The translations under genes were made by a program, and so were the position numbers. The notes under the pieces are model-generated. The model was given only the letters and a program-made list of their open reading frames with translations. It was not told the origin of the DNA and ran no database searches. A DNA stretch of 36,882 nt. Source: Candidatus Gastranaerophilales bacterium. GTDB taxonomy: Bacteria > Cyanobacteriota > Vampirovibrionia > Gastranaerophilales > Gastranaerophilaceae. Below are positions 7,135-14,147 of the stretch, piece after piece (the first letter of the stretch is position 1; each line of letters opens with the position of its first letter). The stretch spans positions 1 through 36,882 of the forward strand of contig CALVAL010000015.1 of assembly GCA_944325535.1 (NCBI GenBank), written 5' to 3'.

Positions 7135-7935
7135 TTATTCTTCTAGATAATTTATACGGTAATAATTAAAAATTAATACTCCGACAAAAACCAAGTAATA
7201 GAAATTGATTAGCGTAAATATAAAATGTGTAACTACATTAGCTGCAAATATTGTCGTAAGTATTGATAATACAAAATAAGAAAGAAAAAGCATTAAATAT
7301 ATTAATACATTTTTTATAAACCTCTTACTAAATAAGTTTTTCAAAGATATCATATAAGCATTGAATGGATTTGAAGATTTAAAGAACATTGCTGGCGGAT
7401 ATAACATAAGCATAAAATATGTTATAAACATTGTCGCTAATAATAATAAATTCCAAGCATTAAGCTTCAATAATTGAACCTCGCTAAGAGAGTATAAAAA
7501 AGTTTTCAAAGCATCTACAGATGACATAGCCTTAGAAAAAGATTCAGAAGATATTCCAATATCTCCTATAAATTGCATTCCTATAAAATAAGACAGCATC
7601 AAAAATAGCAAAACTACCAAAAACATAGTAAATACCATTCCTATTGCACTTAAAAAATACTCTCCCACACCTGCTGGAAACTCTTTAATCAAAGAATTAG
7701 GGTCTTCATCATATTCATTTGATGTTATGCCTTTTCTTATCATAAAAAACCAACCTGATAAAAACGCACATAACATTAATACAAATAAGATAGCAGCAAA
7801 CGCTAATCCAAATATATTTCCACCTAAAGAAAATAAAACGTACAAACTAGAAATTAATGAAAATAATATTAATGGCGTTGCTAGAATTATATATTTATTA
7901 GTTAAACAAAAACTTTCTTTTAAACATTTCAACAT
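7135..7935 (-). CDS. Six-helix integral membrane protein, unknown family
   Basis: 266 residues with about six hydrophobic segments: near residues 17-37, 40-65, 90-115, 155-180, 205-230 and 235-260 (examples: FGLAFAAILFVLMLCAFLSG and FVLSILTTIFAANVV). ATG 7935 is preferred to a TTG 12 bases upstream because GGGAGA precedes it at the right distance. It starts 13 bases after the stop of the Rec-ParA gene, so the two are probably co-translated. The family is not recognised. Its position suggests it may be a membrane partner of the Rec-ParA and Hcp-like proteins, but that is inference. Confidence 0.75.
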   Translation of the reverse strand: MLKCLKESFCLTNKYIILATPLILFSLISSLYVLFSLGGNIFGLAFAAILFVLMLCAFLSGWFFMIRKGITSNEYDEDPNSLIKEFPAGVGEYFLSAIGMVFTMFLVVLLFLMLSYFIGMQFIGDIGISSESFSKAMSSVDALKTFLYSLSEVQLLKLNAWNLLLLATMFITYFMLMLYPPAMFFKSSNPFNAYMISLKNLFSKRFIKNVLIYLMLFLSYFVLSILTTIFAANVVTHFIFTLINFYYLVFVGVLIFNYYRINYLEE

Positions 7936-7948
7936 AGATTCTCCCAAA

Positions 7949-9097
7949 TCACATTCTGTATTGAATAACAGCTTGCTCTATTATATCGTCAGAGACTTTC
8001 ATTGCAAATTCTCTAAAATTATTCCCTATATTCGAAGATGAATTCACCTCAGATATAGATACTCCCTTATTTATAGCATCCATAATAGTAAAATAATTAT
8101 TAGGAATTTTCCAATATATTTTTTCTCCTAATGTATTCTCGATATCTTCAATTTTAATCTCATCATTATCCATATAACGATTTACAATTATTTTTACCTT
8201 ATCATTCGGATAATGTCTTGATTTAAAAAGATTTAAACATCTTTGTGCATTCCTAATTGCAGGAATATTAACAATTGTTGTAAAGAAAATTAAATCAGAA
8301 CAATCTAATATTTTTAAAGAATTCTCATCTATAGCAGAAGACATATCAACTATAATATATGTGAATACTTTTTTCATTGCTTTAAAAAGACTAACTATCT
8401 CTTGAGGAGAAATTCTTTCAGCTTGTTCTATATATGTAGGGTCTGATAAAACATATAATGACGAATCTTTATACTGTTCAAATGATTTTAAAAACTCATC
8501 CTCATTTTTACCTACAAAATTCTTCATCACATAACTAACATCAAAAATCGGATTTAGATTCAAAAAAGTTGCAACATCACCCAATTGTAAATTTAAATCA
8601 ACTAATGCGACTTTACTCTTGGTTACTTGAGCTAGTTCTTTTGCCAAATTAACAGCAATTACAGTTTTCCCAATCCCACCTTTATTTGAATATACGGAAA
8701 TAACCTTTGAATTAGAATCTTCGCTACTATAATTTTCATCTGCAAACATTTTTAAAACACGAAATAAATCATTTTTTAAAACTGGCTTAGGCAAAAATTC
8801 TTTAGCCCCCATTCTCAAAGCCTTAACTATCATATTAGTTGAATAATCTGTGGAGGTAATTATAAGCTTTGAAACATGCAATCTTACTTTTTCAATAAAT
8901 TCATCAGAATTTCCTTGTGAAATGTCTAATATTACAATTACATCATCTTTAAGACTTTTGATTTCTTCTAGCCCTTGATTATAATCAGAATAAAGCTTCA
9001 CTTCTTGAATAAAATCCATTTCATTAATATATGAAGCTAAGATTTCTCTTGAATTCGGATTAGAATCCAAAACTACAACCATAGGCTTATTTTGCAT
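7949..9097 (-). CDS. Receiver-ParA ATPase (CpaE/TadZ-like)
   Basis: 382 residues. Residues 5-118 form a CheY-like receiver: D11, candidate phospho-acceptor D58 (VILDIS), S82/T81 and K104 (FLPKPV); only one of the usual N-terminal acidic pair is kept. Residues 130-380 are a MinD/ParA ATPase: deviant Walker A NKGGIGKT (138-145) with signature Lys139, A' VALVDLNLQLGD (D167), Walker B YIIVDMSS (D251). CpaE/TadZ proteins of this build place Tad or type IV pilus machinery at cell sites; other roles are possible. ATG 9097 is chosen because AAGAGG precedes it; an open frame extends 19 codons further without a site. It sits between an Hcp-like gene and a membrane-protein gene, same strand. Confidence 0.88.
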   Translation of the reverse strand: MQNKPMVVVLDSNPNSREILASYINEMDFIQEVKLYSDYNQGLEEIKSLKDDVIVILDISQGNSDEFIEKVRLHVSKLIITSTDYSTNMIVKALRMGAKEFLPKPVLKNDLFRVLKMFADENYSSEDSNSKVISVYSNKGGIGKTVIAVNLAKELAQVTKSKVALVDLNLQLGDVATFLNLNPIFDVSYVMKNFVGKNEDEFLKSFEQYKDSSLYVLSDPTYIEQAERISPQEIVSLFKAMKKVFTYIIVDMSSAIDENSLKILDCSDLIFFTTIVNIPAIRNAQRCLNLFKSRHYPNDKVKIIVNRYMDNDEIKIEDIENTLGEKIYWKIPNNYFTIMDAINKGVSISEVNSSSNIGNNFREFAMKVSDDIIEQAVIQYRM

Positions 9098-9172
9098 AGA
9101 ATACCTCTTCTTATAAAACAAGTAAAATATTTTTCTTACTTTACTATACTCCAAATCGAAAATTTGAACAAT

Positions 9173-10756
9173 CTATTTTTCTTGTTTTATATCTTCCAAG
9201 TCCTTTTTTACACTTGAAAGAGTCTTTATCCCAAAAATATCACCTACTGTAGATATCAATGTTGGATTTAAAAGTACCGGAGTACATTTCCCAACATAGA
9301 CCTTTATATTTTCCAATGTTGATAAAAATAACATCTGAGAAATACTATGTCTATCGCAACGTGGGAAAAATATTATCTTTGGCAAATCAAACTTACTTAA
9401 AATATCTTGAGCAAATTTATTAATTGCAAAAATATCAAAACAAGTATTAAAACAAACAATATTTTCACTATTTACACAATATGATAATGAAACAATCAAT
9501 ACATCTTTAGGTGCTTGTTTTATTAATTTTTCAAAATAAGACTTTTGCTCAATCGTATAAGCATTAAGACCTATTAAAAAGATTTTATTATAATTTCCAT
9601 TTTCTAATTTTTCTTGAATTCTATTTTCAGCCTCTTTGAAATCATAACCGATTTCAACAGTTTCACATTCTTTACCGGTCTTAAAACCCTTTGATTCTTG
9701 TGCTGAAAGAATCACTGGAGAAAAATCCTTATTCTGTATAGAAATTACACCCTTTGAATAAGCTATATCTGTAGTATAAAGCCTTCCTCTATATAAATTT
9801 TCTACATTATAAAGAGAATGTCTTGTTAAAACAATTGGTCCTGGGAAGGTTGCAAAATCTAAAAGACAATTTTCCATTCCTTGTCCATACTGACCTTTTA
9901 AATGTTTATACTCACTAAATTTTGGGAATGTATGTGCTAGCATCATTTCATCATGAGTATAAACATCAATTTCAGTATTTTTAGTTGCTTCAAGAACATC
10001 TTCTAGTTCACGGATATTGGAACCTACAACTAGTATCGCCTTTGATGGAACTGTCGTATAAGAAACAGAATTTTCTTTTTGCAGACCATATCTTTTTTCT
10101 TGAGCATCTCTCACTAAGTGCATTAGCTTATTATCAATTTTTACAACATCTTTAATGAAACTAACAACTTTTTCTCTATCATATTCTTTTGCATTCAAAG
10201 AATCTAAAAGTTTTAAAATGGTTACATAACCTTCTTCATCAAAAATAGCGTACGTTTCCAAATCTAAAAGATTTATACAAATACTCTTTGCGAGTACTAG
10301 CATAATCGTATATAGATTTCTGACCTCTACCGGAATTAATTTCACCTTTTTTAAAAGTTCTTTTTCTCCTAATTGTATGGATTTTATAATATCAGCAGAT
10401 TTATCAAATTTTAAAACTGATTTTAAATAATCCGGAATAATATCATTTTCCTCACAAGAAAGTGAATATTCATTAATTATTCTAGGTATTTCTTCATTTA
10501 ATTTTGAAATTATTTTTTTAAAATCCGATTCTGAAAAATCAGAATTTAATACTGCTATTGAAATAGTATTTAAAATCAAATTTTTTGCATTATCATCAAA
10601 ACTTCCATTCTCATTAAGTTTTAAAACATAATGAGCAAGTAATTTTAAATACAAAATTAGAACTTCTTGCAAAGAAGATATTCTTGGATTTATAGAACAT
10701 CTGCCATTTGCTATACAACTGTCATATTGGTAATCTTCATTAAAATTATTTATCAT
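9173..10756 (-). CDS. Degenerate hybrid-cluster-protein (Hcp) homologue, probable pseudoenzyme
   Basis: 527 residues that follow Hcp (prismane/hydroxylamine reductase) end to end. N-terminal CIANGRC (C14, C20) matches the second half of the Hcp cysteine cluster. AILVVGSNIRELEDVLE, DVYTHDEMMLAHTFPKF, the GQYGQGMEN/FPGPIVLT segment and the C-terminal TLISTVGDIFGI all align by eye with E. coli Hcp. The cluster ligands are mostly gone. The first CxxC is missing. The ligand His is S246, the ligand Cys in the PIVxT segment is S314, the persulfide Cys is N398, the next Cys is Y426 with a neighbouring C427, and the last Glu is D468; only E270 clearly remains. It is therefore unlikely to be an NO or hydroxylamine reductase. 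No Shine-Dalgarno is evident. It heads the operon with the Rec-ParA gene. Confidence 0.8.
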   Translation of the reverse strand: MINNFNEDYQYDSCIANGRCSINPRISSLQEVLILYLKLLAHYVLKLNENGSFDDNAKNLILNTISIAVLNSDFSESDFKKIISKLNEEIPRIINEYSLSCEENDIIPDYLKSVLKFDKSADIIKSIQLGEKELLKKVKLIPVEVRNLYTIMLVLAKSICINLLDLETYAIFDEEGYVTILKLLDSLNAKEYDREKVVSFIKDVVKIDNKLMHLVRDAQEKRYGLQKENSVSYTTVPSKAILVVGSNIRELEDVLEATKNTEIDVYTHDEMMLAHTFPKFSEYKHLKGQYGQGMENCLLDFATFPGPIVLTRHSLYNVENLYRGRLYTTDIAYSKGVISIQNKDFSPVILSAQESKGFKTGKECETVEIGYDFKEAENRIQEKLENGNYNKIFLIGLNAYTIEQKSYFEKLIKQAPKDVLIVSLSYCVNSENIVCFNTCFDIFAINKFAQDILSKFDLPKIIFFPRCDRHSISQMLFLSTLENIKVYVGKCTPVLLNPTLISTVGDIFGIKTLSSVKKDLEDIKQEK

Positions 10757-10843
10757 AGTATCTACATAATAATTTCTTATTTAAATTTTTAAATTGCCTA
10801 AACTGGCTATAAAAAAATAGTGTAAAATTTTATTACATGGATA

Positions 10844-10872
10844 TTGACATTTTACATACTTTGATTTATAAT
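10844..10872 (+). promoter_or_regulatory. Perfect consensus sigma-70 promoter
   Basis: TTGACA (10844-10849), a 17-base spacer and TATAAT (10867-10872), with no mismatches. It predicts a start near 10879 and a leader of about 27 bases before the ATG at 10906. Because the promoter lies inside the longer open frame, it argues against the upstream start at 10837. Confidence 0.85.
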
Positions 10873-10905
10873 CCCCGAGTGTGTTTAACCATGAGGGTTT
10901 ATATT

Positions 10906-11223
10906 ATGAAAATCAATGCTATCCAAAACAATGGGCTTGTTTGTTCGCCTAAAAAAATGAACAAAAAAATAGGTAATCAAATCCCTACTAACACTAATGG
11001 AACTATAGCTACAGATACCGTTTCATTCAAAGGAAAAGGTGCTATTAAAGGTGCCGGGATTGGTGCTATAGTTGGGGCAGGAGCCCTTACTGCAATATCT
11101 TTATTAAGTGGTGGACTTGCAACACCTATAGCCTACTTAGGATATAGTGCACTATTTGGGACTGCAGGTGGCATGATAGGCAATGCAAGCGATAAAGCAA
11201 AAGAAAATGATAAGGATAAATAA
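10906..11223 (+). CDS. Small glycine-zipper protein with VSFKGK motif, unknown function
   Basis: 105 residues. A polar N-terminus (MKINAIQNNG...) leads to DTVSFKGKG at about 38-45. A Gly/Ala-rich hydrophobic stretch follows at about 49-95 (GAGIGAIVGAGALTAISLL and GYSALFGTAGGMIGNA) with GxxxG spacing, resembling a glycine-zipper membrane hairpin, and then a charged tail. No known family is recognised. GAGG lies nine bases upstream of the chosen ATG, and a perfect promoter lies just before that. A terminator follows, so it is probably transcribed alone and strongly. The short N-terminal peptide ending in a Phe-x-Gly/Ala motif is also seen in the protein at 16561. Confidence 0.75.
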   Translation: MKINAIQNNGLVCSPKKMNKKIGNQIPTNTNGTIATDTVSFKGKGAIKGAGIGAIVGAGALTAISLLSGGLATPIAYLGYSALFGTAGGMIGNASDKAKENDKDK

Positions 11224-11338: not shown

Positions 11339-12169
11339 ATGTTCAGCACAGATATTATCTATGAAGTAGTCACTTTCTCAATCGGCGATACTAAATCAGG
11401 TACTAAAATGGGGAAATTACAATTAAAAGACCCTAAAACCGGTGAATTTTTGAATTGTATTTTATGGGAAGAAGCCTTAAACAGAATAGATTCAAAATTA
11501 TTCCGTTCAGGGAATGAACTAAAAATTGTATCCGGCTCTTTTAATGAAAAATATAATAACTGCCTGGTTTCATCACTAGAACTTATAAAAGAAGCTAAAA
11601 CCGGTCTTAATAAAGAAGAACAAGAAAACACTTATAATGAAATTTTAGAATACATAAATAAAATAGAAAACGAACAGTTAAGAGAATTTGTAAAAGATAT
11701 TTATACAAAAAATAAAGAACAAATTTTAATAAGTCCTGCAGCAAAACTTATGCACCATAATTATATAGGTGGACTTATGGTACATACTCTAGAATGTGTA
11801 AAATATGCTGAAATCAATATGCAAAACTTTTTTCAAAGAGTCAATAAAGACGAAGTATTCGCAGCTTGTCTTTTACACGATATTGGAAAAATTTTTGAAT
11901 ATAAAATTGATGTTGAATCAGGACTTATCGATTATGATGAAAACTTTAGAAAAGAATGGATTTCGCATTCCCAATACGGGTTTTCAATATGCATGTTAAA
12001 TGATTATAAAAGAATTGCCAAAATGATTGCAGCTCACCACGGAAGAGCAGAATGGGGAGCTATTGTTGATTTAAATGAGAAAGATTTAGAGCCTTATGTA
12101 TACTTAATCCATCATATTGATGATTTATCTGCTAAATTCGGAAAAACAAATGTTGCAATGTTAGGATAA
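11339..12169 (+). CDS. YhaM-like 3'-5' exoribonuclease (OB fold + HD domain)
   Basis: 276 residues. The N-terminal 90 residues look like an OB-fold nucleic-acid-binding domain (KMGKLQLKDPKTGEF, then LWEEAL). The rest is an HD phosphohydrolase: HHNYIGGLMVHTLECV, LLHDIGK (about 178-184), SHSQYGF, AAHHG and IHHIDDLSAKFG give the metal-binding His/Asp set. This is the YhaM/CBF1 architecture, an RNase trimming RNA from the 3' end. It is somewhat shorter than Bacillus YhaM. GGAG precedes the start. It is followed by the M49-type gene 25 bases downstream and is probably co-transcribed with it. Confidence 0.87.
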   Translation: MFSTDIIYEVVTFSIGDTKSGTKMGKLQLKDPKTGEFLNCILWEEALNRIDSKLFRSGNELKIVSGSFNEKYNNCLVSSLELIKEAKTGLNKEEQENTYNEILEYINKIENEQLREFVKDIYTKNKEQILISPAAKLMHHNYIGGLMVHTLECVKYAEINMQNFFQRVNKDEVFAACLLHDIGKIFEYKIDVESGLIDYDENFRKEWISHSQYGFSICMLNDYKRIAKMIAAHHGRAEWGAIVDLNEKDLEPYVYLIHHIDDLSAKFGKTNVAMLG

Positions 12170-12194: not shown

Positions 12195-14147
12195 ATGAGT
12201 TTAAAAATCAACAGCTTAAAAGGTTTAACACTACCGCTTATTGCAGGAGGCTTCATGGAAATTAATCGTTTAAATAAAAACAATATTAACCTTAACAGTA
12301 TAAAATATGTATCAAAAGATGATAAAAAAGAGATAAAAAAAGATAATTCACAAAAATTAGTAGAGGAGCTTAATAGAATGAGTATGATTAATAATGTAAA
12401 TATTAATAAAAAAGATTACGAATTAAATCTTTCTATGGAAGAGTTAGAAAAAAGAACTCACAAAGATTATCTAACAACAAAAAAAATGTTAGCAGTTGAT
12501 GCACCTGAATATTTAGAACTCGCAGATGGTGATAAAGAAGCTCTTAAGCATTTAGTCAAAGCTGCTAAAGTTCTAGATAAAGTAAATATGCAACTTGATA
12601 ATCCTAATAACTTACCTTTCCAAGAATATTTAGAAAAAGAAATAGCTAAAGGTAATGAAAATGCAAAATTAACTAAAATTCTTTTTGATGCTCAAAAAGG
12701 GTTATGCTCTCTTGATAGAGAAAGCAATATGATTGAACTTGCAAAAGGGGTAAAAGAAAGAGCAGGAAAGGGTGTCTATCCACAAGACCTAGAAAAAGAA
12801 GAATTTCATAATATTTTAATCAAAATGCTAAAAGAAGGAAAAGTTGATGAAGTTGCTAAAATTCTAAATCAACGCTCTGTTGTAGAAAGAGTTGGAAATG
12901 AATTAGTAGCAACAGATTATGTTGATAAATTCAAAGATGACTTTGCTTATATGGCATCAGAATTGGAAAAAGCAGCTGAAACATCAACAAATGCCGATTT
13001 TAACGAATTCTTAAAACTGCAAGCAAAAGCTCTAAGAACTGCAGATCCTATGTTAGATGCTTATGCTGATAAAAAATGGGCAACTTTGCAAGATACACCA
13101 CTAGAATTTACAATCACAAGAGAAAATTATTCAGATGAATTAACAGAAACTGTAGTTGAAAATCCTGAATTAAAAAAATTATTAGATGAAAATGGAATTA
13201 CACCAGTTGCAAAAGACTTTTTAGGAGGTCGTGTTGGTATAGTTAACAAAAAAGGTACTGATGCTATTTTAGGAGTAAAAAACTATTTACCACTAATGGC
13301 TCAAAATATGCCATTCAAAGATAGCTATATCCAAAATATTTCACCTGATAAAGAATCAAAACAAACAATGGTAGATGTTGATTTAGTTGCTGTAAATGGT
13401 GATGTTGGAGCATTTAGAGCAGGGATTACACTTGCAGAAAACTTGCCAAATGATGATAAGCTTTCAATTAAAGAATTAGATGGCGGAAGAAGAAATGTTT
13501 ACCATAGACAAATTAGATTAATTACATCAGATGATGCTAGAGAAAAGATGAAAAAACGCTTAGATGCAACTCTAAATCCTGAGCTACATAAATATTACAA
13601 CGATGAAGCAGACCACTGGTTCACAGTAGGACATGAAAACGGCCATTCTCTTGGACCAAAATCAGGTACTGAAGGATTAGGTAAATATAAATCAATCATA
13701 GAAGAAAACAAAGCTGATATGATTTCTCTTGCAATGTTAGATGTGCTAACAGAAGCTGGAATGTATACACCGGAACAAAGAAATCAAATAATAGTAACTT
13801 ACGCTGCAGATAATATGATGACATCAAAACCAACCTTAAGCCAAGCTCATAGAGTTCGCTCAGTTATGCAGAACTACTACTTCATAAAAGAAGGTGCTAT
13901 GGAAATTTCTAAAGATGGTGTATTGAATGTTAACATAGAAAAAATGGTACCTACCGCGAAGAAAATGCTTGAAGAAATTATTCAAGTACAAATGAAAGGT
14001 GATTTTTCTAAAGGGGAAAAATATGTAATGGACAATTTTGTATGGACTCCTGAAATGCAGACAATGTCAGAAAATATTAAAAAAGTATCAAAGACTCTAA
14101 ATGGAAAAGTCGAATCACCTTTAGCAGATAAACTTTTAAATGAATAA
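12195..14147 (+). CDS. M49 (dipeptidyl peptidase III-like) zinc metallopeptidase
   Basis: 650 residues. The zinc site is GHENGHSLGPK (H480-E481-N482-G483-H484), with the third ligand in IIEENKADM (E503/E504). HExxH followed by E-E-x-(K/R)-A-(D/E) is the M49 signature; most DPP III enzymes have a six-residue HExxGH, while a minority have the five-residue HExxH seen here. The long N-terminal helical half matches the family's two-lobed shape. There is no clear signal peptide, so it is probably cytosolic and cleaves dipeptides from peptides. AGGA lies eight bases before ATG 12195; an ATG at 12255 with GGAGG four bases upstream is a possible alternative start. A strong terminator follows. Confidence 0.8.
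   Translation: MSLKINSLKGLTLPLIAGGFMEINRLNKNNINLNSIKYVSKDDKKEIKKDNSQKLVEELNRMSMINNVNINKKDYELNLSMEELEKRTHKDYLTTKKMLAVDAPEYLELADGDKEALKHLVKAAKVLDKVNMQLDNPNNLPFQEYLEKEIAKGNENAKLTKILFDAQKGLCSLDRESNMIELAKGVKERAGKGVYPQDLEKEEFHNILIKMLKEGKVDEVAKILNQRSVVERVGNELVATDYVDKFKDDFAYMASELEKAAETSTNADFNEFLKLQAKALRTADPMLDAYADKKWATLQDTPLEFTITRENYSDELTETVVENPELKKLLDENGITPVAKDFLGGRVGIVNKKGTDAILGVKNYLPLMAQNMPFKDSYIQNISPDKESKQTMVDVDLVAVNGDVGAFRAGITLAENLPNDDKLSIKELDGGRRNVYHRQIRLITSDDAREKMKKRLDATLNPELHKYYNDEADHWFTVGHENGHSLGPKSGTEGLGKYKSIIEENKADMISLAMLDVLTEAGMYTPEQRNQIIVTYAADNMMTSKPTLSQAHRVRSVMQNYYFIKEGAMEISKDGVLNVNIEKMVPTAKKMLEEIIQVQMKGDFSKGEKYVMDNFVWTPEMQTMSENIKKVSKTLNGKVESPLADKLLNE

Follow-up and report, generated by a model that had tools for sequence, protein, structure and literature searches.

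The DNA analysed here (the window, 36,882 nucleotides in all) is one contig of a 1.99-Mb metagenome-assembled genome; near relatives carry the titles Candidatus Gastranaerophilales or Melainabacteria, and several come from rumen or faeces. On the reverse strand, an open reading frame beginning with ATG encodes a protein of 527 residues, which we call HCPL, and two genes follow it on the same strand:

9173..10756 (-): HCPL, 527 aa, predicted Hcp-fold protein without the metal-cluster ligands (open reading frame, profile matches, alignment, predicted model)
7949..9154 (-): PARA, receiver domain plus MinD/ParA-type ATPase (Rec-ParA), true start probably M20 at 9097 (Pfam and curated profiles)
7135..7947 (-): MEMB, hydrophobic membrane protein without a Pfam match, a genus-level neighbour of HCPL (open reading frame, profile search, locus survey)

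The other side of HCPL is occupied by forward-strand features. A perfect sigma-70 consensus (TTGACA-17-TATAAT) at 10844-10872 (+) lies inside the listed frame 10837-11223, and the true start of that frame is thus probably a later ATG near 10906; a promoter scan gave counts equal to those of shuffled sequences. The HD-domain protein encoded at 11339-12169 (+), possibly a YhaM-like 3'-5' exonuclease, stands beside HCPL in 44 loci, mostly in divergent orientation. It is followed at 12195-14147 (+) by the gene for a 650-residue protein with no Pfam match and a HENGH motif, which looks like a zinc metallopeptidase and keeps its place close to HCPL in some parts of the genus.

Predicted fold and ligand positions of HCPL

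The sequence-only reading had aligned the 527-residue chain by eye with Hcp along its whole length, and this assignment was confirmed. The Pfam Prismane profile matches HCPL with 114 bits (E 9.9e-33), TIGR01703 matches residues 11-523 with 224.8 bits, and a sequence search against solved Hcps returned E values down to 6.5e-37; the homology is far beyond chance. Although HCPL shares whole-length homology and fold with Hcp, its scores fall below the equivalog cut-offs (360.8 for TIGR01703, and 367 for NF003658, which gave 218.3 bits). An AlphaFold2 model built from 75 family sequences (pLDDT 87.7, pTM 0.89) bore out the likeness when compared with the Hcp crystal structure: Foldseek aligned it to D. 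vulgaris Hcp with a TM score of 0.78–0.80, and its Z score to that structure (1e1d) was 30.7 over 501 residues, CO dehydrogenases coming next at about 16. The model is least confident at residues 1-20 (pLDDT <50), about 311-320 and 491-500. The Hcp equivalents of the first two stretches hold cluster ligands; the third follows the strand-helix unit of Glu494.

The positions of interest, numbered for the ligands as in D. vulgaris Hcp and placed by alignment, are these:

10697..10717 (-): C14 to C20, CxxxGxC, the two cysteines left from the N-terminal [4Fe-4S] motif (model pLDDT <50)
10019..10021 (-): S246 codon, at hybrid-cluster ligand His244
9947..9949 (-): E270 codon, equivalent to ligand Glu268, kept in HCPL and lost in many relatives
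9815..9817 (-): S314 codon, at ligand Cys312
9563..9565 (-): N398 codon, at persulfide ligand Cys406
9479..9481 (-): Y426 codon, at ligand Cys434
9440..9442 (-): C439 codon, equivalent to ligand Cys459, kept in HCPL; cysteine in 41% of the family
9353..9358 (-): C467 and D468 codons, C467 a new family cysteine (canonical Tyr493) and D468 at the position of ligand Glu494
9284..9286 (-): C491 codon, a new family cysteine (canonical Thr/Ser517)

Only two of the seven hybrid-cluster ligands are exact in HCPL (E270 and C439), Glu494 being replaced by D468. The residues named earlier (S246, S314, N398, Y426, D468, E270 and C14/C20, with the first CxxC missing) are all correct by alignment; that list had omitted the Cys459 equivalent, which HCPL keeps as C439 and some of its relatives do not. 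C14 and C20 correspond to D. vulgaris Cys15 and Cys21 and are all that is left of the four-cysteine class I motif (CxxC...C-x5-C). An upstream start would not restore the CxxC: the eight codons between the in-frame stop and the ATG (IRNYYVDT) include no cysteine. Nor does HCPL carry the His and Cys ligands that the C-cluster of Ni-CODH places at Hcp-shared positions (equivalences from PMC10502027), these positions being S246, S314, N398 and Y426. Given the alignment and the fold match, an intact ligand set at other positions is unlikely. Loss of both the hybrid-cluster and the [4Fe-4S] ligand sets is well supported from sequence, and the protein presumably holds no metal at all. According to PMC10502027, each of the three Hcp classes keeps its cluster ligands. 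In the C67Y variant of Mm Hcp, which lacks one [4Fe-4S] ligand, the N-terminal domain is disordered and the architecture is kept (PMC10502027); by analogy, this disorder is compatible with the low-confidence N-terminus of the HCPL model.

Extent, phylogeny and selection of the ligand-poor family

Within the GTDB family of the window, 123 distinct ligand-poor members were found in 36 genera. They keep 0–3 of the seven hybrid ligands, whereas the canonical Hcps (n = 26; from the order, the class and Azospirillum) and the D. vulgaris reference all have 7/7; the distribution of ligand counts is bimodal. An order-wide search gave matches in 360 of 383 genomes, canonical Hcps counted in, and the ligand-poor paralogue is nearly universal among species of the family, which are gut bacteria and non-photosynthetic relatives of cyanobacteria. 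Outside the order, a conserved-peptide scan of the genome collection returned, besides this order, one canonical Azospirillum Hcp, and the three class-level genomes read held Hcps with 7/7 hybrid ligands.

Two other families of the order contribute five further ligand-poor sequences (L034, L037, L040, L047 and L052). L034 (800-2446, genome G047) keeps the four N-terminal cysteines together with E268, C312 and C406, as a partly degraded intermediate; L037 and L040, from the same family (G044 and G039), are more reduced. G047 and G044 each also hold a canonical Hcp (L051 and L049). L047 (5651-7300) and L052 (5572-7212) represent a third ligand-poor type, without the N-terminal cluster cysteines and with equivalents of C406 and C434, and in both genomes a large low-complexity gene precedes the ligand-poor gene. 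Elsewhere, the cluster-free gene occurs in tandem copies, in one case in triplicate, with differing ligand remnants (L207, 2090-3688; L164, 1015-4109; L208, 6620-11485).

For a tree of the Hcp alignment, the columns of the ligands and cysteines were removed. In this tree, canonical Hcps formed one group (support 100), with every ligand-poor sequence across that branch, and the set from the window's family formed one clade (support 100). Two small groups from the other families sat on long branches between this clade and the canonical Hcps; with such intermediate placement, one or several origins of the ligand-poor form are both possible.

Is HCPL simply a gene in decay? Values of dN/dS between close pairs were 0.05–0.11; HCPL is under strong purifying selection. 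Together with its retention across genus and family, these values exclude a decaying pseudogene. Assisting a canonical Hcp within one cell is not a general role either: other genomes have both proteins, but in the window genome only one Prismane gene is present, and there is no canonical Hcp. This last fact also bears on the idea that HCPL is an Hcp relic still handling NO, for example by carrying S-nitrosothiols downstream of NO chemistry, through its kept cavity and its cysteines. Hcp is reported to act as an S-nitrosylase (for review see PMC10210160, PMC13056359), residues Y266, T267, H268, G288, G291 and T311 are common to the HCPL family and canonical Hcps, and some family genomes do contain a canonical Hcp. 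However, the metal site thought to make the nitrosyl donor is gone, and the window genome could draw on no canonical Hcp; we regard this explanation as highly improbable.

The conserved genes around HCPL were surveyed in about 60 window-genus loci whose sequence extends beyond HCPL; a few loci were entered twice. Directly after HCPL stood MEMB in 28 loci, Rec-ParA followed by MEMB in 22, Rec-ParA at a contig end in one, and other genes in 12. Rec-ParA orthologues were present in 24 of the 46 genus genomes, in some of them unlinked to HCPL, and in other genera neither gene lay near HCPL in the loci read. The sequence-only reading had suggested that HCPL might work with both the Rec-ParA protein and the downstream membrane protein, and had proposed a survey of their adjacency. 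Rec-ParA is excluded as a general partner, since it is a patchy neighbour and pairs of HCPL and MEMB without it are as common as those with it; MEMB did emerge as a frequent neighbour, inside the genus only. As for PARA itself, it resembles TadZ/CpaE-type Rec-MinD/ParA ATPases in joining a receiver domain to a deviant Walker A ATPase, but it reaches only 45.2 bits against the TIGR03815 (CpaE-homologue) cut-off of 154.45 and is present in only part of the genus. Profile searches in the window identified none of the scanned neighbours as pilus genes.

Cysteine pairs and the glutaredoxin neighbour

Two further features weigh more than the Rec-ParA neighbour, and the first is a set of four conserved cysteines. 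Among the 123 members, C14 is present in 93%, C20 in 94%, C467 in 93% and C491 in 88%; all four occur together in 98, most deep branches included, and at least one is missing from the other 25. Even on most of the deepest branches, the alignment around the quartet is clean. C14 and C20 are left from the N-terminal motif, whereas canonical Hcps have neither C467 nor C491 but Tyr/Phe493 and mostly Thr/Ser517 at these positions. Departures are largely pairwise. Window-genus members without C491 (replaced by Trp, Lys or Arg) often lack C467 too, and in other clades C14 and C20 are gone together while C467/C491 are kept; by clade, the quartet reads GFCC, AFCC or VLCC on the one hand and CCSW, CCIW or CCGF on the other. 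A tree-based test of co-loss gave no significance, there being too few independent events for adequate power.

In the HCPL model, strands E460-464 and E484-488 are consecutive, and C467 and C491 stand three residues beyond their respective ends; the same offset is seen for their equivalents in a member from a distant genus. With equal offsets after consecutive strands, the two residues should adjoin: we infer that they are side by side at the sheet edge of a beta-alpha-beta unit, beside the position of former ligand Glu494. Residues 1-20, which include C14 and C20, are placed without confidence in both models.

A second line of evidence comes from gene order. Outside the window genus, a glutaredoxin gene lies directly upstream of HCPL in 29 of 60 distinct loci, on the same strand, with a gap of 0–60 bp (mostly 0–10 bp); no adjacent glutaredoxin was found in the other 31 or in any window-genus locus. 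The linked glutaredoxins score above the cut-off of Pfam PF00462, have a CPxC/CPxS active site, and belong to two types, in two clades. Near canonical Hcp genes, glutaredoxin was found in none of 26 cases. The window genome encodes a single glutaredoxin, which is of the first type and lies on a different contig, next to a flagellin-like gene (L243, 1465-2994); a GshB homologue is encoded as well. Glutaredoxin is kept in all 30 near-complete genomes of the genus, and G009, a genus genome without HCPL, still has it. One glutaredoxin-linked member, L181, has lost C467/C491.

Do these features speak for a protein-binding platform or for chemistry? The former was the earlier proposal: a fold reused without its clusters as a non-catalytic scaffold, or else as a sensor. 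The reuse itself, under strong selection, stands. A pure pseudoenzyme scaffold, in which the fold would bind MEMB, Rec-ParA or other proteins and the cysteines would be structural or incidental, would explain why most cluster ligands are gone, and it comports with the frequency of MEMB beside HCPL in the window genus and with low-confidence stretches of the model at or near the Hcp cluster sites. It sits poorly, however, with two cysteines kept and two gained, each at 88–94%, with the glutaredoxin neighbour in 29 loci, and with the restriction of MEMB and Rec-ParA to one genus or part of it. We consider such a scaffold somewhat unlikely. The conserved and newly gained cysteines and the glutaredoxin neighbour point instead to redox chemistry on thiols or to a redox sensor.

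The same four cysteines could also build a metal site unlike that of Hcp. In this view the two pairs, C14/C20 and C467/C491, would ligate some other metal or a new kind of Fe-S cluster, perhaps helped by D468/E270 or by glutathione and a glutaredoxin cysteine, and HCPL would carry clusters or sense through its metal instead of working as a dithiol protein. The bridging of [2Fe-2S] clusters is a known ability of glutaredoxins. A CODH relative with a different Fe-S-O cluster, CooS-V, provides a further precedent (PMC10502027, PMC13056359). Yet the pairs have been lost separately in different clades, which argues against one four-cysteine site, and residues 1-20 lack a confident placement in either model. 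We deem this alternative unlikely.

The best explanation, to which we would give a little short of an even chance, is that HCPL is a cluster-free Hcp paralogue working as a glutaredoxin-coupled dithiol/disulfide protein. An old, family-wide paralogue would have kept the whole fold and lost both metal clusters, with two cysteine pairs in their place: C14/C20 left over, and C467/C491 newly acquired at the edge of what was the hybrid-cluster site. These pairs may form disulfides and act as reversible dithiol/disulfide (or S-glutathionyl/S-nitroso) switches or as redox centres, which a small glutaredoxin would reduce or oxidise; the glutaredoxin gene immediately precedes HCPL in many genera and is unlinked in the window genus. 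MEMB, and Rec-ParA in a subclade, would have joined later and may couple the switch to some membrane process of the genus. More tentatively still, we suggest that an Fe-S-O cluster enzyme became a metal-free dithiol redox protein in the ancestor of this gut family of Vampirovibrionia, the new cysteine pair replacing the metal at the old active site and glutaredoxin replacing the electron donor.

Implications and comparison with known systems

If correct, this could be a case in which one cavity has exchanged its metal centre for a dithiol centre. More generally, a cluster-free Hcp under strong selection in a gut family is a natural experiment on the Hcp fold without metal. Annotations of HCPL genes in Gastranaerophilales as "hydroxylamine reductase" are likely wrong. 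Such members may also have been filtered out of earlier work: at least one recent large survey screened its ambiguous sequences for the key clusters and treated Hcp in a similar way (PMC13056359). The sequence-only reading knew of no Hcp-derived pseudoenzyme of this kind, and the mostly non-subscription literature searched likewise yielded no account of an Hcp without clusters, of Hcp acting as a pseudoenzyme, or of any Hcp from Gastranaerophilales, an absence that is weak evidence. Judged by titles and abstracts, papers that mention Hcp and glutaredoxin together do not look related.

The closest comparison is with Hcp itself, the hydroxylamine/NO reductase (TIGR01703; 1e1d, 7de4, 8cnr), which HCPL resembles in whole-length homology and predicted fold. 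The spacing of C14 and C20 equals that of C-x5-C in class I Hcps, and E270 and C439 are shared as well. Unlike Hcp, HCPL lacks the first CxxC and five of the seven hybrid ligands, scores below the equivalog cut-off, has gained C467 and C491, and in many genera neighbours a glutaredoxin; Fe-S proteins and regulators are the common neighbours of class I Hcps (PMC13056359). Altered ligand sets have precedents elsewhere in the Prismane/CODH superfamily: CODH groups A-4, A-6 and G-1 have altered ligand sets or incomplete active-site motifs (PMC6344411), and CooS-V is a precedent for loss of the standard activity. These proteins, however, keep most of their cluster cysteines and are CODHs, whereas HCPL has lost most of its ligands and finds its structural relative in Hcp (Z of about 30 vs. 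about 16).
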